Source: Acidimicrobiaceae bacterium (GTDB lineage Bacteria > Actinomycetota > Acidimicrobiia > Acidimicrobiales > RAAP-2). From it: 64,000 bases of DNA. The notes under the pieces are model-generated. The model did no database searches, had not been told where the DNA came from, and was given only the letters and a program-made list of their open reading frames with translations. Of this stretch, positions 28,070-62,155 are shown in pieces (position 1 is the first letter of the stretch; each line of letters starts with the position of its first letter). The stretch covers positions 217,136-281,135 of the forward strand of contig PLZW01000037.1 in NCBI GenBank assembly GCA_003153575.1, read 5' to 3'. The translations under genes and the position numbers were made by a program.

Positions 28070-28921
28070 TCACTCGGCCAAATAGGAGAAGTTCGGCCAG
28101 AGGGTTAGATCGAGGTCCGGCAATCGTCTCGCAAGGGCTACAACGTCTGCCTCGTAGATTTCCACCAGCCGCCTTTTCACATCGGGGTCCAGTCCGATCG
28201 TTACGTCCGCCTTCGTTCCCACATGCTCTTCTATTCCGGAAGGGCGGAATTCGGGCAGACCAAGGTGCCGATACGTGGCATTGAGTTGGTTCTCTGGATC
28301 GGCGACACAGCGCTCGTATTGGAGTACTAGCAGTTGCTCCGCGTCGAAACACCTCAGCCACTCATCGAGGGAACGATCGTAAAAACCCCGCTGTATGTGG
28401 TGTTCGCCCGGACGGCCAGATATGCCCATGACCAAACTGTGATTGAGTCCCGACCGGAACCTTTCGACGGGATCACGCAGTAGGAGGAGCAGCCGCGTGT
28501 CGGGTGCGGCTGCCTTCAACAGTGGAGCTGTCCCAGAAGTGCTGAAATAGTCCGGAGTCCATTCGCCGGTCAGCGTTCCCTCTCGGCGTGGAAACCAACC
28601 GTGGTAACAGTCAATGTCCACTGGACCGAACGGCTCTGACCTGAATCTGCCGAAATAGTGAAGCTCCTTGTCGATGCCTGCTGGTGACACCCCTGGATGG
28701 GCGAGTATGAGCTTGTGCCACCGGGTGGTGCCAGCCTTCTGCACGCCAATGCCGACAAAGTCGGGTGGACCCGCCTTTTCCCCGGGGCCCGGAGGTCGCC
28801 GAGGTGTGAAGTCGAACCCCGCTTCCCAAGGAGCGTAGTGCCTCGGCCCTTTTGGCACGCGACGCCGAATGGTGGGCGGAAGGCGTGCCAAACCCTTCCT
28901 CGAGAGGTCGATCAGGCTCAT
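28070..28921 (-). CDS. PAPS-dependent sulfotransferase, paralog A
   Basis: The 283-residue protein transfers sulfate from PAPS, probably to a sugar hydroxyl. The 5'-phosphosulfate loop is GVQKAGTTRWHKLI (about 59-72). The 3'-phosphate region is LLLLLRDPVERFRSG. The family block GEWTPDYF lies between them. The ATG at 28921 has a GAGG site and fits the family start. Its closest relative in the window is at 39807-40799 (shared YAPWExGFDFTP, LTLWPNFS). The gene lies between two pieces of an IS481 transposase and points opposite to it, suggesting it arrived as part of a rearrangement. Confidence 0.88.
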   Translation of the reverse strand: MSLIDLSRKGLARLPPTIRRRVPKGPRHYAPWEAGFDFTPRRPPGPGEKAGPPDFVGIGVQKAGTTRWHKLILAHPGVSPAGIDKELHYFGRFRSEPFGPVDIDCYHGWFPRREGTLTGEWTPDYFSTSGTAPLLKAAAPDTRLLLLLRDPVERFRSGLNHSLVMGISGRPGEHHIQRGFYDRSLDEWLRCFDAEQLLVLQYERCVADPENQLNATYRHLGLPEFRPSGIEEHVGTKADVTIGLDPDVKRRLVEIYEADVVALARRLPDLDLTLWPNFSYLAE

Positions 28922-29240
28922 TGAATCCTCTTTGCGGACACCGCGTAAGGATGCCACAGCGCTGCGAGGCTGATGCAATGGAGCATATTGTCAGCTGTGA
29001 TCTGGCGAGGATGCTCCTGACCCGATGCTCCTGCTTCGACCCACGGACAACCGGTAGCGAGCGCCCAGAGAGCAGCTGACGCCGGCCCCGCCTCTGACAT
29101 CGCGGGCAGAGGACAAATCATCGTCCCAAGCCGGGGAGGTTCTCTTGCGCGTCTCTGTGCAGGTCTCAGTGACATGACGCAGGCCGACGGATCCACCTGA
29201 CCAGCCCAGCACGGTCACCGGACCGCGGGACTGATGCTTA

Positions 29241-29405
29241 CAGTCACGTCAGGATCCTCGAGCCGGTCTCAAAGCTGCCCGAACCAGAGCGTCTCAGGTC
29301 GACTTCCAGATCGAGAAGCTCCGACGAACTCTCAAGCTCGGGCCGGCGGGGATCGGGAATCGCCTGGGGGTACCGACTTCCACGGATTGTCGGGTGCTTA
29401 AATTT
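29241..29405 (+). mobile_element. IS481-family transposase, middle fragment
   Basis: One plus-strand frame reads EKLRRTLKLGPAGIGNRLG and then VPTSTDCRVL. This matches the IS481 segment with consensus LRRxxKLGPARIGxRLGxPxSTVHRVL. It follows in family order the N-terminal fragment at 27788-28000, with the sulfotransferase gene in between. No start codon or downstream catalytic DDE part is present. The rest of the gap 28922-29240 shows nothing recognisable. Confidence 0.65.
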
Positions 29406-29414
29406 AGTGGGTCA

Positions 29415-30572
29415 TTACCGCTGACCCTCGGTTCCCGATTCGAGCGATTTCCGGCGCGCACCGGCAGGCAACATCGGTTCGAGCACCTTCAACCAGCGAT
29501 CAGCGACGGCGGCCAGACTGAACTGGTCGAGGCATCGTTGCCTGGCGGCACTTCCCATGGCCTGTCGCAGGTCGGCGTCACCCGCCAATTCCGCCACCGC
29601 CCTGGCCATGGCGTCCAGATCGTCGACATTGACAACGATTCCGGTGACTCCGCTCTCGACAATGGTTCGGACTCCCGGCACGTCGGTGGCCACGACCGGC
29701 AGCCCGGACAGCCCGGCCTCGATGAGCACCCCGGGCATGCCTTCACCGGCGGGAAGGCTGGGGAACACCAAGACATCGGACCCCCGGAGCAGCTCCGCTA
29801 CGTCAGAGCGTGAGCCGAGTAGCTCGACCCCCGCCACCCGGGCCGGTTCGACCAGCGATGATCGCAATGGGCCGTCACCGACGACTTGGGCCCGACAGTC
29901 GACGCCACGTCGGCGCACAGCGGAGACCACGTCGACGAATCGGTCAGGGCGTTTCCCGGCGGTCAGGGCACCGACGAACGTGATCATCGGGACACCCGAG
30001 GACTCCTGGGAGTCACGCGGCCGGAACGCCAGGGTGTCGCGACCGTTCGGTGTCATGGTCACCCGCCTCGCCGGCACGTCGAGCAGATCGGTGCACTCCA
30101 TCCGCACGTCGTTTCCTTCGGCGGCCACTGCGTTCACCCGCTTCAGTAGGAGGCGCCACATCCAGATCCGAAGGCGACGATCGCGTGGCCCGGCGAAGGT
30201 GCCGATCGCGTAGTACACCAATGGTCGGCGAGTGCCCATCATTGCTGGGACCAGGTATTTGAGTGGGTCGCCGCCGTGGGCGACAACCAGCACCGGGTCG
30301 AGTCGCTTCAGCAACGAACGGAGCGCCGATACCACTCGCACGTCGTAACCTTGGGCGGGAGATCGCCCTCCATCGATGCGTAGCGACAGATCGGTGGCGA
30401 CCTCGGGGGGTCCGTCGAAGATGGTCAAGAGTCGGTGGGCGCGAACCCCTGGCACATCCAACTGGTCGGCGAGCGCCCTTGCCTCTCGTTGGGCGCCTCG
30501 CGCCACCGGCGTAGGGATGACGTGCAACACGAGCGGATCGCCGGGCCATTGCGAGTGCGACTGTGTGTTCAT
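29415..30572 (-). CDS. Glycosyltransferase family 4 (GT-B)
   Basis: The 385-residue protein has an N-terminal acceptor domain (VLHVIPTPVARGAQREAR) and a C-terminal donor domain. MITFVGALTAGKRPDRFVD is followed by VFPSLPAGEGMPGVLIEAG, the E-x7-E donor site of GT4. The ATG at 30572 is preceded by CCGGAG. Open frame extends 79 codons upstream, but without homology. It is divergent from the gene at 30800. The sugar and acceptor are unknown. Confidence 0.88.
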   Translation of the reverse strand: MNTQSHSQWPGDPLVLHVIPTPVARGAQREARALADQLDVPGVRAHRLLTIFDGPPEVATDLSLRIDGGRSPAQGYDVRVVSALRSLLKRLDPVLVVAHGGDPLKYLVPAMMGTRRPLVYYAIGTFAGPRDRRLRIWMWRLLLKRVNAVAAEGNDVRMECTDLLDVPARRVTMTPNGRDTLAFRPRDSQESSGVPMITFVGALTAGKRPDRFVDVVSAVRRRGVDCRAQVVGDGPLRSSLVEPARVAGVELLGSRSDVAELLRGSDVLVFPSLPAGEGMPGVLIEAGLSGLPVVATDVPGVRTIVESGVTGIVVNVDDLDAMARAVAELAGDADLRQAMGSAARQRCLDQFSLAAVADRWLKVLEPMLPAGARRKSLESGTEGQR

Positions 30573-30799
30573 CTCCGGGCCCCCTGCCGGCGCCGAGGTG
30601 TCCGGCGGGCCGAGCGTAGCAGCCGCTTGTGTCGCATTTGCTCGGGTCTCGCCCCGAGCGCGGGGCGGTACCGGGTGCCGGTTCGACCACGGCCGGAGAC
30701 GTGGGCGATGTCCGCTACCATTCGTCGATCTGCAAGGACGAGCGGGGACCCGGACAGGCAATGGACTTGGCCTGCACCGAGCGGGAGCCCAGGGGACGC

Positions 30800-35699: not shown

Positions 35700-35764
35700 C
35701 TTGATTCAGAGCTGTGTCAGGTAGACGGCCCCTCATGCCGGGCCGAAGGGGGGTGGTTTCGTCG

Positions 35765-36694
35765 ATGGTTGAACCGAGTTCTGCAGCGCCATCCTTCGGC
35801 GAACGGCTCCAGGTGAACGAACTGGCCTCCATTCCCGACGAGCCGTCCGACGAAATCCTCTATCACCACAAGGTACGCCTAGTGGAGTCGGCGAAGCTCC
35901 TCTGGGGCCACCGCGAAATTATCTACACCCTGGCCGAGCGTGACTTCCGGGTCCAGTACAAGCAGGCGACCCTGGGTATCCTGTGGGCGGTCCTGAGCCC
36001 GTTGGCTACACTCGCTATCTTCGTGGCGGTCTTCGCGAGGGTGAAGGCCTTCCCCCATTCGGGCATTCCCTACGCCCTGTACGCCTTCGTCGGGATCTTG
36101 TGCTGGAGTTTCTTCGCCTCGTGTGTCGGTGCAGGTGGGAGTTCGCTGCTCTCCAACAAGGCGCTCCTGGCGAAGACCCAATTCCCGCGCGAATGCTTCC
36201 CACTCGAGACGATGCTGGTGAACGCGCTCAACACGGTACTGTCGTGGATCCCCCTGGCAATATTGTTCGTGATCTTCGGTCGGGCGCCGGCGATCACCAC
36301 TGTGTGGGTCCCTCTTTTCATCGTCATCGAGGTGATGTTCGCCGCAGGCTTGATGCTGACCATGTCGAGCGTGATCATCCAGATGAGGGACCTGCAGCAG
36401 GTCCTGCCCATCTTGCTCTCCCTCGGGATATTCATGACGCCGGTGATCTGGCCATTCACCTATATCCCGGACCACTTCCACGTCGTCGGCAGCTTCTACG
36501 TGAACCTCCAGGTGGTCTACGGCTTCTTCAACCCCCTCGGCCCGGTCATCGCCAATATTCGGGCCACGATGCTTCTCGGCCAGAACCCGACGTGGGCCCC
36601 GCTTATCGCCGCAATTGTGGGATCCATCTGCTCCCTCGCTTTCGGATTCAGGATCTTCAAACGCCTGGAGGTGAACTTTGCCGACATTGCCTGA
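35765..36694 (+). CDS. ABC-2 type polysaccharide export permease (Wzm-like)
   Basis: The 309-residue inner-membrane protein has about six helices. It has the typical amphipathic start (LLWGHREIIYTLAERDFRVQ) and the YKQATLGILWAVLSPL block of polysaccharide/teichoic acid exporters. It forms the channel that moves finished glycan across the membrane. I chose the ATG at 35765; a GTG at 35714 would add 17 non-conserved residues. The ATPase gene overlaps its end by 17 bases. Confidence 0.9.
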   Translation: MVEPSSAAPSFGERLQVNELASIPDEPSDEILYHHKVRLVESAKLLWGHREIIYTLAERDFRVQYKQATLGILWAVLSPLATLAIFVAVFARVKAFPHSGIPYALYAFVGILCWSFFASCVGAGGSSLLSNKALLAKTQFPRECFPLETMLVNALNTVLSWIPLAILFVIFGRAPAITTVWVPLFIVIEVMFAAGLMLTMSSVIIQMRDLQQVLPILLSLGIFMTPVIWPFTYIPDHFHVVGSFYVNLQVVYGFFNPLGPVIANIRATMLLGQNPTWAPLIAAIVGSICSLAFGFRIFKRLEVNFADIA

Positions 36695-37871
36695 CGGGAG
36701 CATCAGGGTGGAGAATGTCTGGAAGAAGTTCCGGGCCGACCTAACCCGGCCGCTGTTCATGGATCAAGTGCAGCGATTGGGCAGGTCGATCGCCAGTTCT
36801 GGAGAACGGGAGTACCGCTGGGTCCTCAAGGACGTCAGCCTCGAGGTCGAGCCCGGCGGCAGCCTCGCCCTGATCGGGATCAACGGATCGGGCAAGACCA
36901 CTCTGCTCAAGGTCCTGAGTCAGGTGACATACCAGACCGCCGGAACGTGCATTGTGCAGGGCCGGATCGGCGCGCTGCTCAGTGTGACCGCGGGCCTACA
37001 CCCGGACCTGACGGGTCGGGAGAACGTCTACCTCTACGGAGCGGTGCTCGGGATGGGTCGTGAGAACATCCGGAAGCGATTCGATGAGATCATCGAGTTT
37101 GCGGACGTCGCGGACGCTATCGACCGTCAGATCAAATTCTTCTCCTTGGGCATGCAGATGCGACTCGGATTCTCCATCGCCGCCTACCTGGAACCGGCGG
37201 TGCTGCTTGTCGACGAGGTCCTTGCAGTTGGGGACGCGAGCTTCCAGCAGAAATGCCTGCGTCGAATCGGCGAGATCGTCCGCCAAGGAACGACATTGCT
37301 GTACGTGTCGCACGACCTTGCGTCGGTCGAAGCGTCCTGCGAGAAGGCCGTTTGGTTGTCCGATGCGATGGTGCGGGCATCGGGCCCGACCAAAGATGTG
37401 GTGACGATGTACCGTACCGCGGTGGAGAAGAACGCCACCTTGCTGACGTCCAAGGAAGGCGTGGTCCAGGTGCTCAAGGCAGACATCTACGCGGTCGACG
37501 GGGGTCAACTTCGCTCGGAGTGTGAAGTCGAAGTCGCCCTGACGATGGATTCCCCACAACAAGCTGAGGCCAGCTACTTCATCGGTATCTCGCAGGGGCC
37601 GGCGTTCCCGATGTTCGTGGTGAGCCACAACGCTCAGATGCCCGCCGGTGAGTTCGAGATCCGCTGCCAGCTCGGCTACCTGCCGCTCCCCAAGGGGCAC
37701 TACTCGCTTTGGGTGGCGATCACCGGATACCCCAGGGGCCGGAGTGATCCCTATCTGGAGTGGCAACCGTTGGTCTCATTCGATGCATTCGGTCCGGATC
37801 GCCTTGATCCTCCCGAAGGTGTGATGGTGCTCTCGCCGATCTACGTGGGTGCCAAGTGGAAGATCAGCTGA
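36678..37871 (+). CDS. ABC transporter ATP-binding protein with C-terminal substrate domain (Wzt-like)
   Basis: The 397-residue protein has Walker A GINGSGKTT (67-75), the signature FSLGMQMRLGFS and Walker B AVLLVDEVLAVGD. After residue 240 an extra beta-rich domain of about 150 residues resembles Wzt-C domains, which recognise the end of the glycan. The TTG start has a strong GGAGGTG site and lies inside the permease gene, so the two are coupled. Together they form the export machine of this locus. Confidence 0.92.
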   Translation: MPTLPDGSIRVENVWKKFRADLTRPLFMDQVQRLGRSIASSGEREYRWVLKDVSLEVEPGGSLALIGINGSGKTTLLKVLSQVTYQTAGTCIVQGRIGALLSVTAGLHPDLTGRENVYLYGAVLGMGRENIRKRFDEIIEFADVADAIDRQIKFFSLGMQMRLGFSIAAYLEPAVLLVDEVLAVGDASFQQKCLRRIGEIVRQGTTLLYVSHDLASVEASCEKAVWLSDAMVRASGPTKDVVTMYRTAVEKNATLLTSKEGVVQVLKADIYAVDGGQLRSECEVEVALTMDSPQQAEASYFIGISQGPAFPMFVVSHNAQMPAGEFEIRCQLGYLPLPKGHYSLWVAITGYPRGRSDPYLEWQPLVSFDAFGPDRLDPPEGVMVLSPIYVGAKWKIS

Positions 37872-37874: not shown

Positions 37875-38711
37875 CTAAGGGAAGAACACCGACTCCCTGA
37901 CGGAACCGACCAACCTGCCCAGCCGCACCCCGGCGGCCCGGGCCCACTCGCAGCGGCGATTACTGATGAGCAACAAGGGCACCGAGCACACCAGCCAGGC
38001 CCAGGTCTTACCGGCCCCGGACAGATCGCGACGGGCCCCTTGCGACCGGTAGCGCCGGTAGAGGACGGGCCCGCAGAGTCCATAGGAAAAGGTCTGCCTG
38101 AATACATGCGTAAATCCGTCGCGTTCTCGTTTGGCCACGACGGCGTCAGGGGCGCTGGCGAACCGGAACCCGCGCAGCTGCAGACGCCAGCACAATTCGA
38201 TGTCGTCGCCCATCAGCAGGGCCTCGTCGAAGCCACCCGCGTCGTCGAAGGCCGATCTCCTGACGGCCAGATTGGCCGTGAGGCCGGCCGGTAGAAATCC
38301 GAGTTGTCGGTAGGCGGCCGGAATAGCCGGCGACTCGGGCCCGCCATTGAGGGACCAGGTGTCAAATGTGCCGGCCGCCACGTCCGCGTGGCCCAGTGCT
38401 TCGGCGCAGGCCGAGATCCATCCGGAATGGACGACATCGTCGGCGTCGCAAAAGGCGATGAGGTCTCCTTCGGCGGCCCGGACACCCGCGTTGCGGGCCG
38501 CCGGGGCCCCGGCCCGTGCCGACGCGTCGACTACCCGGAACCGGTCGTGGGCCGTCGACCAGACCTCGGCGAATTCCCGACTCCCGTCGTCGGAACCGTT
38601 GTCGGCAACGACGACCTCCCACCGATCGAGGCAGTCCTGGTCGGCCAATGCTCGAAGTTGTCCTTCGAGCCACGGCATACCATTGCGCACGGGGATGACG
38701 ACACTGATCAC
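37875..38711 (-). CDS. Glycosyltransferase family 2
   Basis: The 278-residue GT-A enzyme starts ISVVIPVRNGMPWLEGQL. It has VVVADNGSDDGS and the DxD region LIAFCDADDVVH (about 83-94). A later ED-like catalytic region (ALLMGDDIELCWRL) fits family 2. The C-terminal 60 residues may form a membrane-associated helix. The GTG start is used. It converges with the Wzt-like gene, with only 3 bases between the stops. Confidence 0.9.
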   Translation of the reverse strand: MISVVIPVRNGMPWLEGQLRALADQDCLDRWEVVVADNGSDDGSREFAEVWSTAHDRFRVVDASARAGAPAARNAGVRAAEGDLIAFCDADDVVHSGWISACAEALGHADVAAGTFDTWSLNGGPESPAIPAAYRQLGFLPAGLTANLAVRRSAFDDAGGFDEALLMGDDIELCWRLQLRGFRFASAPDAVVAKRERDGFTHVFRQTFSYGLCGPVLYRRYRSQGARRDLSGAGKTWAWLVCSVPLLLISNRRCEWARAAGVRLGRLVGSVRESVFFP

Positions 38712-38871: not shown

Positions 38872-39870
38872 ATGAGCGACGGGCGGCACACAGCAACAGG
38901 TTCTACGGTGCCGGGGGACCAGCGCCTGCAGGGAGTGACGGCCGTGGTGCTGACCCATATGCGCCCACGCCTTGCCGGCGATGCCGCGCGCTCACTGCTC
39001 GAACGCGAGGGGTTCGCCGGCAGCCAGATCATCGTCGTGGTGAACGGTCCGGGTGGGCTCGACGACCCAGAACTCGAGGCATCCGTGCGGATGGTACGAC
39101 TTCCGCGGAACACGGGGCCGGCAGGAGGCTTCAGGGCGGGTATGGTCGAGGCGTTCGCGGATCCAGCGACCCAGTGGGTCTACCTATGTGAAGACGATGT
39201 CGGCCTGTTCACACTCCCGTGCCCGCGCGTCGCCGAACTGCTCGAACGGTTGGATGTAGCCGACCGGTCGTCCCCGCCCGTCGGAGCGGTCGTGGCCTAC
39301 GGCCGGAAGTTCGTCGGGAGAGGTGCCCACACGGTCAACGTCGTACCGGCGGAAGGTGGCGGTCCAGTACTGGCCCCGGTCGACGTGGCATGTTGGGGCG
39401 CGACACTGGTCTCACGCTGCGTCGTCGATTCCGGTGTGCTGCCCGACCCGGACTGGTTCTTCGGGCTCGAGGATTTCGATTTCTTCTGCCGTGTCCGAGA
39501 TGCGGGCTTCCAGGTCGTGGTGGACGGGGACGCTGCACGTTCGGTGGCCCCCGAGCAGACGTCTGCCGGACGTGAGGACGCCATCTCGTCCGATCGACCC
39601 ACGGACGCCGACGAGGCATGGCGCAGCTATTACCATGCCCGGAACTCGATCGAGTTGATTCGCCGGCATGGCGATCCGACCTGGTATGCCTGGCACCTCG
39701 TCTACTCCCTCCGCCACCTCCAGAAGGCAAGGAACCGGGCGTCCCGGATAGCAATCTTGCATGGTCTGTTGGATGGTACCCGGGGGCGGATGGGAGAGAA
39801 CCCCCGCTATGCGCGTCGTGAGGGGGAGTTCGGTCCGCCGTCCCTCGCTCCCTTGCCACCGGACAGATGA
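38872..39870 (+). CDS. Glycosyltransferase family 2, GlfT2/rhamnosyltransferase-like
   Basis: The 332-residue protein opens with a variable 20-residue leader, then VTAVVLTHMRPRLAGDAARS. RNTGPAGGFRAGM and the DxD-type VYLCEDDVGLF follow. The catalytic acids sit in DWFFGLEDFDFFCR. This layout is that of galactofuranosyl and rhamnosyl transferases. It is related to the gene at 46102-46974. Its last 64 bases overlap the convergent sulfotransferase gene. Confidence 0.88.
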   Translation: MSDGRHTATGSTVPGDQRLQGVTAVVLTHMRPRLAGDAARSLLEREGFAGSQIIVVVNGPGGLDDPELEASVRMVRLPRNTGPAGGFRAGMVEAFADPATQWVYLCEDDVGLFTLPCPRVAELLERLDVADRSSPPVGAVVAYGRKFVGRGAHTVNVVPAEGGGPVLAPVDVACWGATLVSRCVVDSGVLPDPDWFFGLEDFDFFCRVRDAGFQVVVDGDAARSVAPEQTSAGREDAISSDRPTDADEAWRSYYHARNSIELIRRHGDPTWYAWHLVYSLRHLQKARNRASRIAILHGLLDGTRGRMGENPRYARREGEFGPPSLAPLPPDR

Positions 39871-40799
39871 GAGAAGTTGGGCCACAGGGTGAGATCGAGC
39901 TCCGGTAGTTGCCCAGCCAGACGCATGACATCGGATTCGTAGTAGTCCACCAGGCGCCTCCGGATGGCAGGGTCGAGAATGGTCCTCGAGCCTGGCGGTG
40001 CGTCCACGGGCCTGCTCGGCTCCGTCGATTGGTCATGGTGCATCTCGGAGTCGGACAAGCCGAGGAAGCGAAACGTGGAGCGGAGTTGGCCTGCTGGATC
40101 TGCGACGCATTGCTCGTACTGGAGGACCAGTAGCTGCTTGCTGTCGAAGTGGGTCAGCCAGTCGTCGAGCAACCGGTGGTAGAACCCGCGCTGGAGCGCA
40201 TCGGCGATCACCGATGGCCCGAGCGGATTGCCCATGCGCCTCATATGGGCCAGCCCCGATCGGAGCCTTTCGACCGGATCGCGTAGGAGCAGGAGGAGAC
40301 GCGCTTCGGGTGCCGCCCGCTTCAACAGGAGAGGCACCCAGGGCAGTCCGAAGTAGTCCGGTGTCCATTCACCCGTCGCCGTTCCTTGAGGACGTGGGAA
40401 CCAGCCGGAGTAACGCTCAATATCGGATGCCCCGAACGGCGCTACTCCGAATTGATCGAGAAAGTGCCGCTCCTTGTGGATGTCGGGACGGTGGAAGAGC
40501 CGTGGATGGGTCATCATGAGCTCGTACCACCACGTGGTCCCACACTTCTGCACCCCGATGCCGACGAAGTCCGGCGGCCCCACCTCTTCGCCGATACACA
40601 GAGGGGGAGGGGTGAAATCGAATCCGGACTCCCACGGTGCATAGCGACCGAAACCATGGAGCACCTGCCGACGAACGCCCGGTGGCAGTTTGGCGAACTG
40701 CTCCTTTGCCAGCCTCCGCAAGTGTACGCCGTAATCCGCAGCAGCCACCGCCGCACAATGCCACAGGAGTTGAGGGGCCACAAGCTTCGTCAGGTGCAT
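39807..40799 (-). CDS. PAPS-dependent sulfotransferase, paralog B
   Basis: The 330-residue protein has the PAPS 5'-loop GVQKCGTTWWYELM, the 3'-phosphate region LLLLLRDPVERLRSG and the family block GEWTPDYFGLPW. It is a paralog of the protein at 28070-28921 but about 45 residues longer, at the N-terminus and the Pro/Gly-rich C-terminus. I chose the ATG at 40799; 70 further upstream codons are open but not conserved. It probably sulfates a sugar of the surface glycan with PAPS from CysDNC. Confidence 0.88.
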   Translation of the reverse strand: MHLTKLVAPQLLWHCAAVAAADYGVHLRRLAKEQFAKLPPGVRRQVLHGFGRYAPWESGFDFTPPPLCIGEEVGPPDFVGIGVQKCGTTWWYELMMTHPRLFHRPDIHKERHFLDQFGVAPFGASDIERYSGWFPRPQGTATGEWTPDYFGLPWVPLLLKRAAPEARLLLLLRDPVERLRSGLAHMRRMGNPLGPSVIADALQRGFYHRLLDDWLTHFDSKQLLVLQYEQCVADPAGQLRSTFRFLGLSDSEMHHDQSTEPSRPVDAPPGSRTILDPAIRRRLVDYYESDVMRLAGQLPELDLTLWPNFSHLSGGKGARDGGPNSPSRRA

Positions 40800-40932
40800 C
40801 GGACACCAGACTCCGGCGCCGTCCACTTGACGGCACGCGCTCGTCAGCCGATGATCTGGCCATGGGCTGCGTCGAGGTGCTTGCGAATTCGCTGTCGATG
40901 CCGCAGGACCTTCCTGTAGTCGGACGCTGATC

Positions 40933-42900
40933 GTGTGCGGGATAGCCGGGCTACTCGACCCGAAGCGGAGCGTCGGGGCAGTCGAGCTCGGGAGGGACGT
41001 CGTTGCCATGGCGTCGACCCTCGGCCACCGCGGTCCTGACGACAGCGGACTCTGGATGGACCCACAGGGGTGTGTGGCATTCGGTCACCGAAGGTTGGCC
41101 GTCGTCGACCTGAGCCCGGAGGGCCATCAACCAATGATGTCACCGAATGAGCGGTGGGTGATGACGTACAACGGTGAGATCTACAACTTCCCTGAACTGC
41201 GCGCGCGGCTCACCAGGGAGGGCATGGCCTTCCGAGGTGGTTCGGATACAGAAGTGCTTTTAGGCGCGGTCCAGTCCTGGGGCGTTGGGCAGGCGCTCGA
41301 GGCCATCGAGGGGATGTTCGCGATCGCCATATGGGACCGAGATCGAGGCGAGTTGCACCTGGTGAGAGATCGGTTCGGCGAGAAGCCCCTGTACTTCGGT
41401 TGGGTCGGCGGACGGCTGGCCTTTGCGTCGGAACTCAAGGCATTCCGGGTGCTTCCACGCTTCACCCCCGATCTCGACCGAGACGCCGTGGCGCAGTTCC
41501 TGCGTCACAGTTGCATTCCCGCACCTCGCACTGTGTATGCGAACGTCAACAAACTCGAACCTGGTCAGTGGGCGACGTTTGACCGCACAGCGCGACCGGG
41601 TTCGGCGCCAGCGGTCCGGAACTACTGGTCGCCGCGTTCGGCGATCGACGATGCGATGCGCACGCCTTTCGTCGGCCCGACTGAGCAACTGGTCGATCAG
41701 CTGGAGGAGGTCTTGTCGAGTTCGGTGGAGGCGCGAATGGTCGCCGATGTCCCGGTCGGTGCGTTCCTATCGGGTGGGGTGGACTCGAGTCTGATCGTGG
41801 CCCTGATGCAACGGCTCAGCGAGCGGCCGATCCGCACGTTCACCGTCGGCTTCGCCGATCGCGCCTTTGACGAGTCGGAGGAAGCTGCCGCAGTCGCCAA
41901 GCACCTCGGAACTGACCACACCTCCCTGATGGTCACCGATGGCGACGCCGCGGACGTGATTCCCCGACTCCCCGACATCTGGGATGAGCCATTTGCGGAC
42001 ATCTCGCAGATCCCGGTGCTCCTGGTCAGCCAGCTGGCACGCGCCCAGGTGACCGTCTCGCTGTCAGGTGACGGGGGCGATGAACTGTTCGCTGGATACA
42101 ATCGTCACGCCTGGCTCGGACGCCTCTGGCGGCGTGGTGCGGCTGTCCCAGATCCCGTGCGACGAATGGCAGGTTTGGCCTTGCAGCGCCTGCCTCCCGG
42201 CCTCGTCGACGGTGCAGCAAGCGTCACCCGACTACTGCCTGTTCGCATGCAGGTACGCAATCCCTCCACCAAAGTGGCCAAGGTCGGTAAAGTACTGGCG
42301 TCAACCGGGCCGGAGGATGCATATGTTTCGCTGATCTCCCATTGGGAAGCTCCCGAATCGATGGTGATCGGTGCCGGCAGCAGGGTGACCTCCGACGCGG
42401 CAGACCCGTCCCGCTGGCCACCCCTCACCGGGATCACTGAACAGATGTTGTGGCTGGACCTGATCGGTTATCTGCCCGACGACATTCTGACAAAACTCGA
42501 CCGCGCGGCGATGTCGGCCTCGCTCGAGACCCGGGTGCCGTTCCTCGACCGTGATGTGTTCGACCTGGCCTGGCGGATGCCGATGGACGTCAAGTTGCGG
42601 GATGGGGTCCCCAAGTGGATCCTCCGCCAGGTCCTCTACCGCCACGTTCCACCGGCACTCGTGGATCGTCCGAAAATGGGCTTCGGCGTGCCCATAGGTT
42701 CGTGGCTCCGCGGTCCGCTCCGTCCGTGGGCGGAGGAGCTACTCGACGAGCGACGACTCCGCACGCAGGGCCTGCTCGATCCTGGACCCGTGCGCATGGC
42801 GTGGAAGCAGCACCTGACTGGACGTCGTGACCAGGGATACGGGCTCTGGAACGTCCTCGCCCTGCAGGCTTGGATCGACCGGTGGATGCCAGGACTCTGA
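40933..42900 (+). CDS. asnB: Asparagine synthetase-type glutamine amidotransferase (AsnB family)
   Basis: The 655-residue enzyme has the class II glutaminase domain with catalytic Cys2 (MCGIAGLLD) and an N-terminal core to about 210. An ATP-pyrophosphatase synthetase domain with the loop SGGVDSS (280-286) follows. AsnB makes asparagine from aspartate, but homologs in polysaccharide loci amidate uronic acids. A UDP-sugar dehydrogenase that would make such an acid is present at 20929. The GTG start directly gives the required Cys2. Whether it serves the cell's asparagine pool or the glycan cannot be decided from the sequence. Confidence 0.92.
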   Translation: MCGIAGLLDPKRSVGAVELGRDVVAMASTLGHRGPDDSGLWMDPQGCVAFGHRRLAVVDLSPEGHQPMMSPNERWVMTYNGEIYNFPELRARLTREGMAFRGGSDTEVLLGAVQSWGVGQALEAIEGMFAIAIWDRDRGELHLVRDRFGEKPLYFGWVGGRLAFASELKAFRVLPRFTPDLDRDAVAQFLRHSCIPAPRTVYANVNKLEPGQWATFDRTARPGSAPAVRNYWSPRSAIDDAMRTPFVGPTEQLVDQLEEVLSSSVEARMVADVPVGAFLSGGVDSSLIVALMQRLSERPIRTFTVGFADRAFDESEEAAAVAKHLGTDHTSLMVTDGDAADVIPRLPDIWDEPFADISQIPVLLVSQLARAQVTVSLSGDGGDELFAGYNRHAWLGRLWRRGAAVPDPVRRMAGLALQRLPPGLVDGAASVTRLLPVRMQVRNPSTKVAKVGKVLASTGPEDAYVSLISHWEAPESMVIGAGSRVTSDAADPSRWPPLTGITEQMLWLDLIGYLPDDILTKLDRAAMSASLETRVPFLDRDVFDLAWRMPMDVKLRDGVPKWILRQVLYRHVPPALVDRPKMGFGVPIGSWLRGPLRPWAEELLDERRLRTQGLLDPGPVRMAWKQHLTGRRDQGYGLWNVLALQAWIDRWMPGL

Positions 42901-55017: not shown

Positions 55018-56028
55018 TCAACCGGTGTCTCGACCGGTTCCCTTGATGCCCGCAATGATCGATCGAAGTGGCTGTGTCACCCGCCAACTGGTGGATCCGC
55101 GGAGCCGATCGAGAGCGAGCTGCTTCTCTCGCACACTGGCCTCAAGTTCCTCCACCTTGCGGGTTCGGCCCTCGCGGCGTGCTGCAATGACCGCAGAGGT
55201 CCAGCTCGACTCACTTGTGAGTGCCATGGGATCCATCGGCAGGTGACCACCTCCGGCGGCCGCCAAGCGGGCAATTAGGTCGCGCTGCGGTGCGAGGAGC
55301 AGTTCGCCATCGGAATCGAGATCAGCATTCGGCCGCGCCGTGATGGTCGAGATCCCAAGTCCCACGTCCCACGGAATCGATTCGGAGGCGAATTGAGGTC
55401 GAGAACGCAACCAGTCGGCCAGGGAGCCGATGGTGCCAGATGGATCGTCCACGAGTGACTCGTAATTGCAGACATACGTGTCCAGACCGACCAGGTGCTC
55501 GAGAGCGGACCGGTTGTACCGCTCCCATAGTGCGATCCCCTCGGCAAGGTGCAGCCCATTGCGCCGGCGCAGTGAGCGTGCCACCGACAAGGGTGACCGC
55601 CAGACCAGGACCGCGGTGGGAGGCGACGGGAAAAAGTGCTGCCAGTGGGGGAGAAGGATGCATAGGCGTGGGTCCTTGCAGACGAGGGGACCGGCATCCG
55701 GAAACGCCCGTCCGGCTGCCGAGGTGGGGTTCCGTGCCTCCCCAACTTCGGCGCCGTCCTCCCAATGTGGAGGCAGATCAGGCGGTGCTTCCCAACTGCC
55801 TCCAAGATCGGCAAGGAGCTCGTCGTTGTACGCGGAGATCGACACGCTTTCCCAATGCTCCGGATTGCTCTCGTGCCATCCCATCAGGTCGTCAGGATGC
55901 GGCGTCTGAAAACCAAGCCCGCCGAGCGCTCCTGAGACGGCCGACGTGCCGCTGCGGTGCATCCCGAGTACGACCAACCACGGACCGGGTGGCATCGGAC
56001 CGGATCGTCGGTCGACGTCCGGCCTCAT
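55018..56028 (-). CDS. Sulfotransferase family protein, paralog C (distant)
   Basis: The 336-residue protein has the PAPS-loop form VVLGMHRSGTSAVSGAL (about 19-35) and VCKDPRLCILLPHW. The 3'-phosphate-like region is VLVWRSPLSVARSLRRRNG. It belongs to a different sulfotransferase branch than the two others (GMHRSGTS type). The C-terminal 55 residues form a basic coiled coil (REGRTRKVEELEASVREKQL). An in-frame Met12 is an alternative start. Confidence 0.8.
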   Translation of the reverse strand: MRPDVDRRSGPMPPGPWLVVLGMHRSGTSAVSGALGGLGFQTPHPDDLMGWHESNPEHWESVSISAYNDELLADLGGSWEAPPDLPPHWEDGAEVGEARNPTSAAGRAFPDAGPLVCKDPRLCILLPHWQHFFPSPPTAVLVWRSPLSVARSLRRRNGLHLAEGIALWERYNRSALEHLVGLDTYVCNYESLVDDPSGTIGSLADWLRSRPQFASESIPWDVGLGISTITARPNADLDSDGELLLAPQRDLIARLAAAGGGHLPMDPMALTSESSWTSAVIAARREGRTRKVEELEASVREKQLALDRLRGSTSWRVTQPLRSIIAGIKGTGRDTG

Positions 56029-56362: not shown

Positions 56363-57490
56363 CTAACGGGCGAGCGCCCCGATGACGCCGGCGACTCGTT
56401 CCAAGTCCTCATTAGACAGCCCCGATCCGGTGGGGAGACACAGGCCCTGATCGAAGATGTGGGCGGCTACCGAGCCACCAACCACGGGACTTGCGGCAAA
56501 AACGGGTTGGAGGTGGAGGGGCTTCCAGGTGGGGCGTGCTTCGATATCGACCGATTCGAGGGCCAGTCGAACGGCCTCTCGATCGACGCCGAACTGCTCC
56601 GGGTCGATCGTGATGCAGGTGAGCCAGTAGTTGGGCTCGCCGTACGCCGCGATCGGCATGAACCCGATACCAGGTAGCTCGGCCAACGCGGTCCGGTAGT
56701 ACTCATTGATCCGACGCCGACGTTCGATCCGGCTGTCGAGGCCCCGCAGCTGGGCCCGGCCCAGAGCGGCCAGCAGGTTACTGAGCCGGTAGTTATACCC
56801 GACGACGGAGTGTTCGTAGTGCGGAGACGGGTCCCGGGCCTGGGTGGCCAGGTAACGGGCGCGGTCAGCTACATGAGCGGATTCGGTGACCAGCATGCCG
56901 CCCCCACTTGTCGTAATGATCTTGTTTCCGTTGAACGAGAAGACCCCCGATGCCCCGAACGAACCTGCAGCGCGACTCCGGTAGGTTGCGCCAAGCGCTT
57001 CGGCAGCATCCTCGACCAGCGGGACGCCGTAGGAGTCGGCCAAGGGGAGCAGCCGGTCGTAGTCGGCCGCCTGGCCGTACAGGTCGACGGTTACCATGGC
57101 TCGTGGGAGGAGCCGGCCGTCACGCGCCCGGTCGGAGAGTTCCTCCGCAACCAGGTCCGGATCGATATTCCACGTCGTCGGCGAGCAATCGACGAAGACT
57201 GGTTCGGCTCCGAGGTAGCGGACGGCATTGGCCGTCGCCACGAACGTGAACGACGGCACCAGGACTTCGTCACCCGGCCCCACCCCGAGCATCAGGAGGG
57301 CGAGGTGGAGTGCGGCCGTGCCACTCGATAGTGCGACGGCGTGTCCAATGCCGACTCGGTCAGCGATCTCGGCCTCGAACGCGTCGACGTCCGGACCGAG
57401 CGGCGCGATCCAGTTGGAGTCGAAGGCTGCGAGGAGCATGCGGCGTTCCTCGGGCCCGACTTCGGGAGGGGAGAGGTAGATGCGACTCAT
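56363..57490 (-). CDS. PLP-dependent sugar aminotransferase (DegT/DnrJ/EryC1/StrS family, PglE/PseC-like)
   Basis: The 375-residue enzyme transfers an amino group from glutamate to a 4-keto UDP-sugar. The Schiff-base Lys is K190 in FSFNGNKIITTSGGG, and D161 in VEDAAEALGA contacts the PLP. The opening IYLSPPEVGPEERRMLLAAF is typical of the branch that makes UDP-4-amino-sugars. It overlaps the WecA-type gene by 4 bases, forming an operon with it and the GNAT gene. The CapD-type dehydratase at 22220 would make its substrate. Confidence 0.9.
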   Translation of the reverse strand: MSRIYLSPPEVGPEERRMLLAAFDSNWIAPLGPDVDAFEAEIADRVGIGHAVALSSGTAALHLALLMLGVGPGDEVLVPSFTFVATANAVRYLGAEPVFVDCSPTTWNIDPDLVAEELSDRARDGRLLPRAMVTVDLYGQAADYDRLLPLADSYGVPLVEDAAEALGATYRSRAAGSFGASGVFSFNGNKIITTSGGGMLVTESAHVADRARYLATQARDPSPHYEHSVVGYNYRLSNLLAALGRAQLRGLDSRIERRRRINEYYRTALAELPGIGFMPIAAYGEPNYWLTCITIDPEQFGVDREAVRLALESVDIEARPTWKPLHLQPVFAASPVVGGSVAAHIFDQGLCLPTGSGLSNEDLERVAGVIGALAR

Positions 57491-58449
57491 GCGGTGGCTC
57501 CCTGATCAGGTGAGATCGCCCCGGTACTGGTCGCCAAGACCACGAGTAGCACGGCGACCAGTAGATCGAAGGCGATGATGGGTCCGAGTCCGAGGTGGCG
57601 TGCCACGGCGACCGCACCCAGGCCCAGCACCGCCTCGATCCCGATGTAGGCCAGACTTGCCCGACTGCGTGTCCATCCGCGCGTCACGAGTCGATCGTAG
57701 GGATGCCTGCGATCACCGGCCATCAGTGAGGTCCGGCCCCGAAGTCGGCGGATCACGGCAAAGGTCAGCTCGGCGGCGGGCAGAGCCACCAGGGAGAGGG
57801 CGGCCAGGCCCAGCTCGAGGGAGAGATGCGGCGCCCATGCTTCGCCCAACAGGATGGCCAAGGCCGTACCCAGGAGGTACGCGCCTCCGTCGCCCAGGTA
57901 CACCTGGGCAGGCGGCCGATTGAAGACAAGGAATGCCAAGAGTGCCGGGCCCAGGGCCGCGGCCAGCTGCCTGCCCGGCCCGACCAGGAGTAGTGCGAAC
58001 GACAGGGCGGCCACGGCGCCGACGCCCCCGGCCAGCATATCGAGACCGTCCAACAGGTTCACTCCATTGATGAGCAGGACCGTGACAAGCACCAATAGCA
58101 GCGCGGCCAGCGGGCCACCGAAGCCTACCGGACTGGTCGCGACGACCATCGCTCCTACACCGACCTCGCCGACGAGTCGGACCCAGGGTGCCAGGTCGAA
58201 GCGGTCGTCGGTCACGCCGAGGAGCAGTGCGGCGGCCAGGGGAATGAGGACTGTCGGTCGTCCGGACAGGGCACCCACGGCGGTGCCCGCGAATACGGCA
58301 ACCCCGCCCAAATACGGGATCGGCGCCTCCTGCTGCTTGAGTTCACCCGGCCGGTCCACGATGCCGGTTCGCTTCGCCACGACGATCATTGCCGGCGTGA
58401 CCACAAGGGCAGCCACGAACGAGACGATTGCGATCAGGGGAATCGTCAC
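57487..58449 (-). CDS. Polyprenyl-phosphate sugar-1-phosphate transferase (WecA/MraY-like)
   Basis: The 320-residue membrane protein has about ten helices. It links a sugar-1-phosphate from a UDP-sugar to undecaprenyl phosphate and so begins glycan synthesis. Family motifs: D81-D82 in GVTDDRFDL, NGVNLLDGLDMLAGG, YLGDGGAYLLG and the UDP-sugar end loop GDRRHPYDRL. It overlaps both neighbours by 4 bases. It is the only initiating enzyme seen in the window. Confidence 0.92.
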   Translation of the reverse strand: MTIPLIAIVSFVAALVVTPAMIVVAKRTGIVDRPGELKQQEAPIPYLGGVAVFAGTAVGALSGRPTVLIPLAAALLLGVTDDRFDLAPWVRLVGEVGVGAMVVATSPVGFGGPLAALLLVLVTVLLINGVNLLDGLDMLAGGVGAVAALSFALLLVGPGRQLAAALGPALLAFLVFNRPPAQVYLGDGGAYLLGTALAILLGEAWAPHLSLELGLAALSLVALPAAELTFAVIRRLRGRTSLMAGDRRHPYDRLVTRGWTRSRASLAYIGIEAVLGLGAVAVARHLGLGPIIAFDLLVAVLLVVLATSTGAISPDQGATA

Positions 58450-59096
58450 GTCGGTGTCCTACCGCCCGGACCTGCGGCAACCGGGTCCCACTGCAACAGC
58501 AGCGATCTCGACCCGGCATGCAGTTCGAACTCCGCCGCCGCCACGAAGCCGGCCCTTCGATAGAGGTCGATGGCGCCTGAGTTACCGGTGGCCACGATGA
58601 CGTAGGCGGTGCTCCCCCCGGTTCGGTCGACTTCGGAGAGGAAGGAGTCGACCAGCCCCTTCCCGATGCCACGGCCTTGGTGGCTGGGGTCTACGGCAAT
58701 GGCCAACAGCTCGGTGCCCTCACCGGTGCCGGCTCCGTCGCCTGCACCGTGCCGGAGCGTCTCGAGTACCCGGCGCCATCCCAGCACCAGACGGCGGGCC
58801 ACGCCCAGAGAGGCCCGGATCCCGTCGCGCCAGACGAATGAGCGGTAAAGAGCCGTCACATCGCAGGATCCGGCGATGAATCCCACTACGTGGTCATCGG
58901 CTTCTGCGACGATCAGGAAGGATGATGGGGACAAGGAGATCCGCCGGTAGAGATGGGTCAGGAAGCCGGGCCCCAGGAAGGAGAGGAACCCCTCGCTGAT
59001 CTCATCGGCATGGAGTCGGGCGGCAGCGGCGGCATCTGCCTCGGTGGCCTCCCGGAATGTCGGCTTGTGGCCGTCCTGGCCTCTCGTGCCTGTCAC
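58446..59096 (-). CDS. GNAT-family N-acetyltransferase
   Basis: The 216-residue protein has the acetyl-CoA motif LLAIAVDPSHQGRGIGKGL near residues 130-148 and the closing NSGAIDLYRRAGF. Its place in an operon with an amino-sugar aminotransferase suggests it acetylates the new amino group, like PseH or WecD. That is inferred from context. The start is GTG. It is first in the operon and divergent from cysD. Confidence 0.82.
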   Translation of the reverse strand: MTGTRGQDGHKPTFREATEADAAAAARLHADEISEGFLSFLGPGFLTHLYRRISLSPSSFLIVAEADDHVVGFIAGSCDVTALYRSFVWRDGIRASLGVARRLVLGWRRVLETLRHGAGDGAGTGEGTELLAIAVDPSHQGRGIGKGLVDSFLSEVDRTGGSTAYVIVATGNSGAIDLYRRAGFVAAAEFELHAGSRSLLLQWDPVAAGPGGRTPT

Positions 59097-59294: not shown

Positions 59295-59308
59295 TGATCC
59301 GCTATCAT
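59295..59308 (+). promoter_or_regulatory. Promoter element TGATCCGCTATC with -10 TATCAT before cysD
   Basis: TATCAT (59303-59308) ends 8 bases before GTG 59317, which fits a leaderless start. The first 12 bases repeat exactly those at 24685-24696 before the Wzz-like gene. Confidence 0.4.
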
Positions 59309-59316
59309 GGCCTTCT

Positions 59317-60252
59317 GTGAATGAGAGCAGTGGGGCAGGGCTGGCCGGGCAGTACCAATTGTCGAACCTGCGCGCCATCGAGACCGAATCGATTCATATT
59401 ATTCGGGAGGTGGCGGCAGAGTTCGAACGACCGGTTTTGCTCTTCTCGGGTGGCAAGGACTCGGTGGTCATGCTCCGACTCGCCCAGAAGGCGTTCTGGC
59501 CGGGTCGCATCCCCTTCCCGGTGATGCACATCGACACCGGCCACAACTTCCCGGAGGTCCTCGCGTTCCGCGATCGGATGGTTTCCGAGCTCGGCGCCAA
59601 CCTCGTGGTCGCCTCGGTGCAGGAGTCGATCGACTCCGGTCGTTCGGTCGACGAGGGGGGACCGGACCCATCGCGCAACCGGTTGCAGACCCGCACCCTC
59701 CTCGACGCTATCGCCGAGTACAAGTTCGATGCCGTCTTCGGAGGCGCTCGCCGGGACGAGGAGAAGGCGCGGGCAAAAGAGCGCGTCTACTCATTCCGTG
59801 ACGACTTCGGGCAGTGGGACCCGAAGAACCAGCGTCCGGAGCTGTGGTCGCTCTACAACGGACGCCATCGGGCCGGTGAGCACATCCGTGTCTTCCCACT
59901 CTCGGACTGGACTGAACTCGACATATGGCAGTACGTGGGTGAGGAAGGACTCGAGTTGCCTTCGATCTACTTCTCCCACCGCCGTGAGGTGTTCCGCCGC
60001 GACGGCATGTTGATCTCGGTCGGGCCATTCGTCAACGCTCGTGGCGAAGAGGAGATCATCGAAACCAGCGTCCGCTACCGGACCGTGGGCGACATGACGT
60101 GCACCGGAGCCGTGGAGTCCTCGGCGGTCAGCGTCGACGAGATCATTCTCGAGGTGGCAGCGTCCCGACTCACCGAACGGGGCGCCACACGCGCCGACGA
60201 CCGGGTGAGCGAGGCAGCCATGGAGGACCGCAAGCGGGAGGGCTACTTCTAG
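59317..60252 (+). CDS. cysD: Sulfate adenylyltransferase subunit 2
   Basis: The 311-residue CysD, with the GTPase CysN, makes APS from ATP and sulfate. The PP-loop LFSGGKDSVVMLR lies about 40 residues in. MHIDTGHNFPEV, FGGARRDEEKARAKER and the closing KREGYF are diagnostic. I chose GTG 59317 because a -10 box sits 8 bases upstream. An ATG at 59287 would add ten residues. The stop TAG directly abuts the cysN start. In this window it heads the PAPS operon. Confidence 0.95.
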   Translation: MNESSGAGLAGQYQLSNLRAIETESIHIIREVAAEFERPVLLFSGGKDSVVMLRLAQKAFWPGRIPFPVMHIDTGHNFPEVLAFRDRMVSELGANLVVASVQESIDSGRSVDEGGPDPSRNRLQTRTLLDAIAEYKFDAVFGGARRDEEKARAKERVYSFRDDFGQWDPKNQRPELWSLYNGRHRAGEHIRVFPLSDWTELDIWQYVGEEGLELPSIYFSHRREVFRRDGMLISVGPFVNARGEEEIIETSVRYRTVGDMTCTGAVESSAVSVDEIILEVAASRLTERGATRADDRVSEAAMEDRKREGYF

Positions 60253-61503
60253 ATGGAACTGCTGCGATTCGCGACGGCGGGCTCCGTCGACGACGGCAAA
60301 AGCACGCTGATCGGGCGGCTCCTGTACGACTCCAAGGCGATCTTCGAGGACCAGCTCGAAGCCGTGGAGCGGGTGAGCAGCCAACGGGGCGACGAGTACA
60401 CCGACCTGGCGCTGCTGACCGATGGCCTACGTGCCGAGCGTGAGCAGGGCATCACGATCGATGTCGCCTATCGGTACTTCGCTACGCCGGCCCGGAAGTT
60501 CATCATCGCCGACACCCCGGGTCACATCCAGTACACGCGTAACATGGTCACCGGAAACTCGACGGCAGACCTAACGATCGTGCTCGTCGATGCTCGACTG
60601 GGGATCGTCGAACAGACCCGGCGTCACGCTTTCCTGGCGTCGTTGCTCCGGGTTCCCCACCTTCTGGTCTGCGTGAACAAGATGGATCTGGTCGACTACG
60701 ACCAGGGCGTGTTCGACGCCATCCGCGAGGAGTTCACCACATTCGCCAGCCGCCTCGAAGTGGCCGACATGACGTTCATCCCCATTTCGGCGCTCAAGGG
60801 TGACAACGTGGTTCAGCGGTCGGCGAACATGCCCTGGTACGAGGGGGCTTCCCTTCTGCACCACTTGGAGCAGGTCTACATCGCCTCCGATCGCAACCTG
60901 ATCGATCCACGGTTTCCCGTCCAATGGGTGGTCAGGCCCCAGGCCAGCAACCTGCCCGACTATCGGGGATATGCCGGGCGGATCGAAGGCGGGGTGTTCC
61001 GACCCGGCGATGAGGTGATGGTCCTTCCCTCCGGCTTGACCACCACGGTCGCCGGAATCGACACCTTCGACGGACCGCTGGACGAGGCGTTCGCCTCCAT
61101 GTCGGTCACTCTGCGCCTTAGCGATGACATCGACATCTCGCGGGGTGACATGATCTGCCGCCCGCATAACAGGCCCACCGTCGGCCAGGACCTCGATGCG
61201 ATGGTGTGCTGGATGACCGATCGTCCGATCCAGGTCGGCGACTTCCTGGCGCTCAAGCACAGCACCCGTTGGGTCCGAGCCGTGGTGAGGGATATCCACT
61301 ACCGGCTCGATGTAAATACCCTTCATCGTGACGAAACGGCGACGACACTGGGCCTCAATGATGTCGGGAGGGTTAGCCTTCGCGTCACCCAGCCGCTGTT
61401 CTACGACAGTTACCGTCGGAATCGGCAGACGGGATCGTTCATCCTCGCTACCGAAGACAACAACGTGACCGCCGGAGCTGGCATGCTGCACGGTCCCGAT
61501 TGA
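60253..61503 (+). CDS. cysN: Sulfate adenylyltransferase subunit 1 (GTPase)
   Basis: The 416-residue EF-Tu-like GTPase drives the CysD reaction. GTP motifs: AGSVDDGKST (G1), DTPGH (G3) and NKMD (G4). The switch segment REQGITIDVAYRYF is typical. Length fits stand-alone CysN, without the fused APS kinase seen in some actinobacterial CysNC. The ATG begins at the base after the cysD stop. Confidence 0.95.
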   Translation: MELLRFATAGSVDDGKSTLIGRLLYDSKAIFEDQLEAVERVSSQRGDEYTDLALLTDGLRAEREQGITIDVAYRYFATPARKFIIADTPGHIQYTRNMVTGNSTADLTIVLVDARLGIVEQTRRHAFLASLLRVPHLLVCVNKMDLVDYDQGVFDAIREEFTTFASRLEVADMTFIPISALKGDNVVQRSANMPWYEGASLLHHLEQVYIASDRNLIDPRFPVQWVVRPQASNLPDYRGYAGRIEGGVFRPGDEVMVLPSGLTTTVAGIDTFDGPLDEAFASMSVTLRLSDDIDISRGDMICRPHNRPTVGQDLDAMVCWMTDRPIQVGDFLALKHSTRWVRAVVRDIHYRLDVNTLHRDETATTLGLNDVGRVSLRVTQPLFYDSYRRNRQTGSFILATEDNNVTAGAGMLHGPD

Positions 61504-61507
61504 TTTT

Positions 61508-62155
61508 GTGACGGAGCCGGGATCGTCCCCCAATGTCACGTGGCACGCGGGCCACGTCTCGCGAGACGAGCGAGCGGCCTTGTTCGGGTCCGGGGGAGCC
61601 ACGCTGTGGTTCACCGGTCTGTCAGGGTCGGGTAAATCCACGTTGGCAACGGCGGTCGAGCAGCAGCTCATCCAATCCGGACGCGGCGCGTATCGGCTCG
61701 ACGGCGACAATCTCCGTTCCGGACTCAACGGTGACCTCGGCTTCAGTCGGGAGGCCCGTGAGGAGAACTGCCGTCGAGTGGCCGAAGTCGCGCGTCTCTT
61801 CGCCGATGCCGGGCTGGTGGCGGTGGTGGCGATCATCAGCCCCTATGCGGAGTCGAGGCAGCGGGCCCGTCAGATCCATGCCGATGCCGGATTGCCGTTC
61901 ATCGAGGTGTATCTCGCAGCATCCGCAGAGACCTGTGCGACGAGAGACCCTAAGGGCCTTTACGCCGCGGCCTCGGCAGGGCACATCGGATCGTTCACCG
62001 GAGTGGATGATCCCTACGAGGTGCCTGAATCACCGGATCTCGTGGTCGATGCGGAGGCGACGGTAGTAGAGGCCGTCGATCTCGTGCTCGGAGTGCTCGA
62101 ACGCGCCGTCGATCCACCAGCCCCCACCTCCGAGTCGTCTGAGGCGCCCAATTGA
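61508..62155 (+). CDS. cysC: Adenylylsulfate (APS) kinase
   Basis: The 215-residue CysC phosphorylates APS to PAPS. The P-loop GLSGSGKST is at 37-45, with RLDGDNLRSGLNGDLGFS and RDPKGLY, all diagnostic. It follows cysN by 4 bases. With no sulfite-reduction genes in view, PAPS is likely made for the three sulfotransferases of this locus rather than for cysteine synthesis. The last 20 residues are a Pro/Ser/Glu tail. Confidence 0.95.
   Translation: MTEPGSSPNVTWHAGHVSRDERAALFGSGGATLWFTGLSGSGKSTLATAVEQQLIQSGRGAYRLDGDNLRSGLNGDLGFSREAREENCRRVAEVARLFADAGLVAVVAIISPYAESRQRARQIHADAGLPFIEVYLAASAETCATRDPKGLYAAASAGHIGSFTGVDDPYEVPESPDLVVDAEATVVEAVDLVLGVLERAVDPPAPTSESSEAPN

Follow-up and report, generated by a model that had tools for sequence, protein, structure and literature searches.

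The window analysed here is a stretch of 64,000 nucleotides from an Acidimicrobiaceae bacterium (assembly GCA_003153575.1, contig PLZW01000037.1, here C39:217136-281135), which carries a polysaccharide island with sulfotransferase genes and a cysDNC cassette for making 3′-phosphoadenosine-5′-phosphosulfate (PAPS) by way of adenosine-5′-phosphosulfate (APS). The assembly comprises 2.98 Mb in 43 contigs and is estimated to be 76% complete. Genes were called with a simple codon-based caller, domains were annotated with Pfam and further models were taken from NCBIfam; comparisons covered 14 genomes of the window's genus, of which 10 reach a completeness of 90% or more, and a wider set of 100 relatives. 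The cassette and the sulfotransferases of the island are as follows.

59317..60252, plus strand: cysD, ATP sulfurylase small subunit (PF01507, 155 bits; TIGR02039, 455 bits, above cut-off)
60253..61503, plus strand: cysN, ATP sulfurylase GTPase subunit, 416 amino acids, not fused to an APS kinase (Pfam; TIGR02034, 559 bits, above cut-off)
61508..62155, plus strand: cysC, APS kinase, which makes PAPS (PF01583, 212 bits; TIGR00455, above cut-off)
28070..28978, minus strand: sulfotransferase A (Sulfotransfer_3, 50.6 bits, cut-off 27; Sulfotransfer_1, 37.5 bits, cut-off 22)
39807..41009, minus strand: sulfotransferase B (Sulfotransfer_1, 56.5 bits, cut-off 22; Sulfotransfer_3, 55.9 bits, cut-off 27)
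55018..56028, minus strand: sulfotransferase candidate C, a weak call (Sulfotransfer_3, 22.3 bits, under the cut-off of 27)

The three cys genes are intact (59317-62155). A preliminary description of this locus had placed PAPS-making cysDNC genes in a polysaccharide locus, and this is borne out: CysD and CysC score above their NCBIfam cut-offs and CysN above that of TIGR02034, though it narrowly misses the stricter model NF003478. CysC contains all five motif strings searched for (the P-loop GLSGSGKS and four others). The best-scoring named relative of CysD belongs to an Acidimicrobiales metagenome-assembled genome (MAG; 76% identity), and in a fast tree the CysD of G093, from the same order, pairs with that of the MAG. 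This points to Acidimicrobiia as the probable class of the genome. Rfam gave no match in the window at the gathering score.

Sulfotransferases A and B are 54% identical in alignment. NCBIfam names neither of them, nor candidate C. A profile built from seven A/B relatives matched heparan sulfate 3-O-sulfotransferases first among solved proteins (3e-27), followed by a bacterial sulfotransferase (1e-24) and then N-sulfotransferases, which points to a sugar as the acceptor of A and B, short of proof. Candidate C is regarded as a weak call because its 22.3 bits lie below the Pfam cut-off, and its standing as a firm sulfotransferase is further weakened by the absence of any Protein Data Bank match to its family profile; an AlphaFold model from the single sequence (mean predicted local distance difference test score 38) was left unused. 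The three sulfotransferase-like genes had been located correctly in the preliminary description, with starts for A and B (28921 and 40799) that are internal Met codons inside longer open reading frames, but only A and B clear the Pfam cut-offs. Glycan is the acceptor we favour. That these enzymes instead modify lipids, proteins or small metabolites, the exported glycan being unsulfated, appears improbable to us: the solved proteins closest to A and B are glycan sulfotransferases, and both genes lie amid glycosyltransferases and an exporter, even if the sulfotransferase fold is broad, candidate C matches no solved enzyme and more such genes occur elsewhere in the genome (C4, C15, C32 and C39:68360).

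The island itself extends from about 13.3-14.4 kb to about 63 kb and continues beyond the 64-kb window, as judged from the codon-based calls and Pfam. It was rightly called a polysaccharide locus with cysDNC, and is larger than had been stated. Its contents include a UDP-sugar dehydrogenase, a dehydratase, an epimerase, a formyltransferase-like gene, many glycosyltransferases, a Wzm/Wzt-type ATP-binding cassette (ABC) exporter, methyltransferases and an AsnB-type protein, and a DegT, WecA-type and GNAT group lies divergent from cysDNC. Third-position GC (guanine plus cytosine) content is 0.88-0.96 in the left flank and 0.64-0.85 in the island; cysD (0.82), cysN (0.81) and cysC (0.73) fall within the island range.

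9680-10885, minus strand: GH43 glycosidase, left boundary (Pfam)
11770-12687, minus strand: cation efflux protein, left boundary (Pfam)
18545-19480, minus strand: nucleotide-sugar epimerase (Pfam; below NCBIfam cut-offs)
20929-22257, minus strand: UDP-sugar dehydrogenase (Pfam; below NCBIfam cut-offs)
22220-24265, minus strand: PseB/WbpM-like dehydratase (Pfam; below NCBIfam cut-offs)
29415-30809 (minus), 30629-32011 (plus), 32062-32943 (plus), 33180-34370 (minus) and 34367-35557 (minus): glycosyltransferases (Pfam)
35714..36694, plus strand: ABC exporter membrane part, Wzm-type (PF01061, 42.2 bits)
36678..37871, plus strand: ABC exporter ATPase, Wzt-type (PF00005, 66.4 bits)
37875..38711, minus strand: family 2 glycosyltransferase (Pfam)
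40933..42900, plus strand: AsnB-type amidotransferase (PF00733, 371 bits)
46102-46974 (minus), 51810-53252 (plus) and 53695-54942 (plus): glycosyltransferases (Pfam)
48328-49038 (plus), 49225-50193 (minus) and 50624-51598 (plus): methyltransferases (Pfam)
56363..57490, minus strand: DegT-type sugar aminotransferase (PF01041, 339.6 bits)
57487..58449, minus strand: WecA/MraY-type glycosyl phosphate transferase (PF00953, 80.8 bits)
58446..59096, minus strand: GNAT acetyltransferase, divergent from cysD and adjoining the cassette in several relatives (Pfam)

The assembly holds one cysD, one cysC and one cysH; the cysD and the cysC of the window are the sole copies found, the latter being the sole APS kinase. 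Neither cysH nor a sulfite-reductase-type gene lies near the cassette, both being on a separate contig, C27, which carries cysH, a NIR_SIR-family reductase (under the cut-off of every NCBIfam model matched), a FrhB-type gene and a siroheme-synthesis-like gene. The earlier remark that no sulfite-reduction gene is seen holds for the window but fails for the genome as a whole, and the idea of an organism devoid of sulfite reduction is ruled out by the reductase beside cysH. A Sat-type ATP sulfurylase was considered as a missing second set and rejected, none being found in the assembly or in the 14 genus genomes; it is present in 4 of the 100 relatives. In sister genera as well as in the window's own, the FrhB-type gene, of the coenzyme F420 dehydrogenase beta subunit family, follows the NIR_SIR reductase (the pair at L015:9612-12676), and its product is possibly the electron partner of that reductase.

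Within the genus, a PF01507 search gave at most one cysD and at most one cysH per genome. Both are present in 10 of the 14, while G009 has a partial cysD at a contig end and G001, G003 and G005 have cysH alone. No cysDN was seen at the cysH locus in the 12 readable genomes (G000, G002-G008 and G010-G013; the count leaves out G001, where a contig end cuts the locus, and G009, where cysH was unmatched), and cysH was not called in any cassette locus fetched from the genus. DegT, WecA-type and/or GNAT genes adjoin the cassette in 8 of the 11 genus genomes with cysD; the cassettes of G009 and G010 are on contigs shorter than 5 kb, and G008 lacks the island. Long parts of the island gene order are shared by G012, G013, G011 and G002, and GH43 and cation efflux genes close the island in G012 and G013 as well. 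Wzm/Wzt genes were also called in G013, G002 and G011, and no exporter in the stretches of G012. The region upstream of cysD, aligned for eight genus genomes, has a mean column identity of 34% and no evident conserved block.

Two sets occur in sister genera. G050, G032 and G047, all of other genera, combine a window-lineage cysDNC cassette with a separate cysH-linked cysDN, and in G050 and G034 the cassette stands next to the same glycan genes as in the window's genus. G014, G018, G037 and G055 likewise have a second cysD set, which in them belongs to other lineages; G034 has three PF01507 matches, of which one was located. Family loci outside the genus in which cysH and cysD were both called include cysN in 19/19 and CysC in 0/19, a biased count in that these loci were fetched because cysD was listed there. 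In the CysD trees, many of whose remaining branches are weakly supported, the cassette proteins form a branch of their own (15 rows, 14 of them different, the window being counted twice; Shimodaira-Hasegawa-like approximate likelihood ratio test 99) and the cysH-linked CysD of the family form another (21 rows; support 87, or 100 in the fast tree).

These comparisons bear on what the preliminary description had proposed as checks, namely that a second assimilation set would support a dedicated role, and that a single set lying beside sulfur-assimilation genes in relatives would speak against it. A second set was found in G050, G032 and G047 but in neither the window's genome nor the 14 genus genomes. 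The cassette is the only set found in the assembly, and in the genus it does not lie beside assimilation genes; glycan genes accompany it there, whereas two distant members of the order, L196 (G061) and L197 (G063), have cysC, cysH, cysD and cysN side by side. We consider it very unlikely that the cassette is fully dedicated to the glycan, with a second, assimilatory ATP sulfurylase in the unassembled part of the genome. The incompleteness of the assembly and the two sets of sister genera would allow for this, but a second cysD was found in 0/14 genus genomes, Sat in none, and cysDN is absent from the cysH locus, its place in sister genera, in all 12 readable cases.

Sulfotransferase loci, counted as merged PF13469 loci, are concentrated within 40 kb of cysD. 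In the window's genome 3 of 7 lie that close (0.14 expected) and in the 11 genus genomes 15 of 58 (0.59 expected); when sub-cut-off matches were dropped, 13 of 54 remained against 0.55 expected, the maximum over 200,000 simulations being 7. The linkage exceeds chance, although the 11 genomes are related and the counts are therefore not 11 independent tests. Among the 100 relatives, 58 have both CysC and a sulfotransferase, 16 CysC alone, 4 a sulfotransferase alone and 22 neither; the corresponding numbers for family members of other genera at least 90% complete are 16, 5, 0 and 11 (Fisher values of 1.9e-8 and 6.8e-5, kinship ignored). Within single genera, g3, g8 and g10 include species in which the presence of CysC and of a sulfotransferase varies together (for g10 only if a weak CysC match is called absent), and in g5, g11 and g20 CysC alone varies. 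The 11 family members with neither trait still carry at least two PF01507 genes, so assimilation there seems independent of CysC, and their CysH probably takes APS. Further afield, a sulfotransferase-like gene lies within eight genes of CysD in 15 of the 75 named relatives with a called CysD (80 named CysD relatives), and related arrangements are therefore not rare in actinomycetes.

We propose, at a probability of about 0.62, that a glycan-linked PAPS cassette today supplies two pathways, one sulfating the glycan and the other leading to cysteine. CysDN would convert sulfate and ATP, with GTP, to APS, and CysC, encoded at the island's edge, would phosphorylate APS to PAPS, from which the island sulfotransferases would transfer sulfate onto the glycan, probably in the cytoplasm and before transport by the ABC exporter. 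The same CysDN would also supply APS to CysH and the sulfite-reductase-type enzyme of C27 for cysteine; a cysH-linked ATP sulfurylase was not found in the genus, and the cassette would therefore have to serve CysH too. For the genus as a whole, we give even odds to a fuller scenario in which the assimilatory ATP sulfurylase is gone, presumably lost rather than originally absent, the island cassette is the only entry for sulfate, APS branches through CysC to the glycan and through CysH to cysteine, and loss of the island, as in G008, leaves the cassette in place. Of the earlier idea that the locus has its own PAPS supply, the conserved cassette among glycan genes stands; a dedicated role is unsupported, as this is the sole ATP sulfurylase and APS kinase found.

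G008 fits a simpler account, in which cysDNC is the assimilation set of the genome and a glycan island grew beside it by chance. There (L136, G008:C1, 4298-10062) only about 225 bp separate cysD from the cation efflux and GH43 genes; the entire island is absent and no sulfotransferase was found, yet cysDNC is retained, and cysD and cysN have a backbone-like third-position GC (0.92). This account also agrees with the cassette holding the sole ATP sulfurylase found and with the description of one cultured member of Acidimicrobiia that assimilates sulfate with CysDNC and CysH (PMC12263773). We nevertheless judge it unlikely, because it leaves unexplained why G050, G032 and G047 keep the cassette alongside a cysH-linked cysDN, why the same glycan genes stand by it in G050 and G034, and why CysC is missing from most family members that have no sulfotransferase; in the window, moreover, the third-position GC of cysDNC matches the island and differs from the backbone. 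A cassette of recently foreign DNA, suggested by that low value, was considered, but G008 is backbone-like and G002 is without contrast; as the other genomes disagree with the window, no direction of transfer is claimed.

Several observations weigh against the proposal that one cassette serves both glycan and cysteine. The link between CysC and sulfotransferases breaks within the window's genus in opposite directions: G008 yielded no sulfotransferase in two family searches yet keeps an intact-looking cysC whose product retains all motifs searched for, and G001, G003 and G005 have sulfotransferase matches but neither cysD nor cysC was found, perhaps owing to assembly gaps. Five family genomes outside the genus, at least 90% complete, have CysC and no sulfotransferase match. 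The assembly behind the sharing claim is 76% complete, and the 19 sister-genus loci were a biased choice. The C27 CysH (L015:12694-13410) passes generic reductase models and fails both the APS-specific model (TIGR02055, 188.9 bits, cut-off 235.3) and the PAPS-specific one. Iron-sulfur APS reductases are marked by a CC pair plus the cysteines of a C-x-x-C motif; in 28 of 28 full-length CysH of the family the pair is present and the last cysteine absent. These proteins have C-x-x-T, once C-x-x-V, in its place.

Additional genes of interest lie past the right end of the window on the same contig, the C-like gene and the two Pfam-supported sulfotransferases within 4.2 kb of it.

L016:5475-6371: C-like gene, 31% identical to candidate C in alignment, without a Pfam match
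L016:6461-7459: sulfotransferase (Pfam, 42.9 bits, cut-off 27)
L016:8490-9278: sulfotransferase (Pfam, 23.9 bits, cut-off 22)
L016:7572-8372: 2-oxoglutarate-Fe(II) oxygenase family gene; another lies near the cassette in a second genus (L145:5301-6218)
L016:12480-16715: AftD match (arabinofuranosyltransferase, 1411 residues, 637 bits), downstream of the cassette

Comparable clusters are known from other bacteria. PAPS genes with sulfotransferases in a polysaccharide cluster have been called a hallmark in Vibrio sp. KMM 8419, whose capsule cluster has glycosyltransferases, an ABC exporter, three sulfotransferases and cysC/cysN/cysD (PMC11641403). Its cys genes are second copies, its sulfated structure is solved and its export is of the Gram-negative Kps type (PMC11641403), whereas the island is known from its genes and no second cys copy was found in the assembly. 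Cobetia marina KMM 1449 likewise combines cysD, cysN/C, sulfotransferases and ABC export genes in the cluster for its sulfated capsule, but its cysN/C is fused, cysQ and a sulfate permease are adjacent and the product structure is known (PMC11766843). Three gene components of this type of cluster are present in the island: sulfotransferases, cysD/cysN/cysC, and glycosyltransferases with an exporter. Among actinomycetes, the wps-1 polysaccharide cluster of Actinoplanes missouriensis, a soil species, has two sulfotransferases and, among three adjacent genes tested, one of the sulfate adenylyltransferase/APS kinase family; it is of the Wzx/Wzy type, its sulfated product is likewise unverified, and the available text makes no mention of a merged assimilation role (PMC13390465). 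By the same account, few bacteria are known to make sulfated polysaccharides, and for actinomycetes proof is lacking (PMC13390465), in agreement with the earlier statement that they are rarely described in actinobacteria. In Planobispora longispora (L061, 7753-19972) cysD and cysN share about 12 kb with a sugar transferase gene, a flippase-type gene and three sulfotransferase genes supported by Pfam; unlike in the island, no cysC was called beside cysDN, an inositol-monophosphatase-family gene is upstream of cysD and no ABC exporter was called. L061 also has glycosyltransferases, and comparable neighbourhoods were called for loci of Nocardiopsis and of further Streptosporangiaceae.

The NodPQ proteins of rhizobia are sulfate-activation enzymes devoted to carbohydrate sulfation, additional to a housekeeping set. 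The window shares with them a carbohydrate-linked sulfate activation; a housekeeping ATP sulfurylase besides the cassette was found neither in this assembly nor in the 14 genus genomes, but is present in G050, G032 and G047. According to a study of Vibrio vulnificus, rugose colonies need cysD and cysC, PAPS being proposed as a signal (PMC6113621). We recognised no description of a sulfated-glycan locus in Acidimicrobiia in the open-access literature searched; one report joining the class with sulfated polysaccharides concerns their breakdown (PMC5649159).

PAPS genes with sulfotransferases in polysaccharide clusters are thus a kind already known, and the new part is the apparent takeover of assimilation. 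The conservation of linked PAPS genes in the genus, together with the duplicated sets of relatives, indicates where a sulfated actinomycete polysaccharide may be sought. A shared ATP sulfurylase, if true, would offer a route to test how APS is divided between nutrition and surface decoration.

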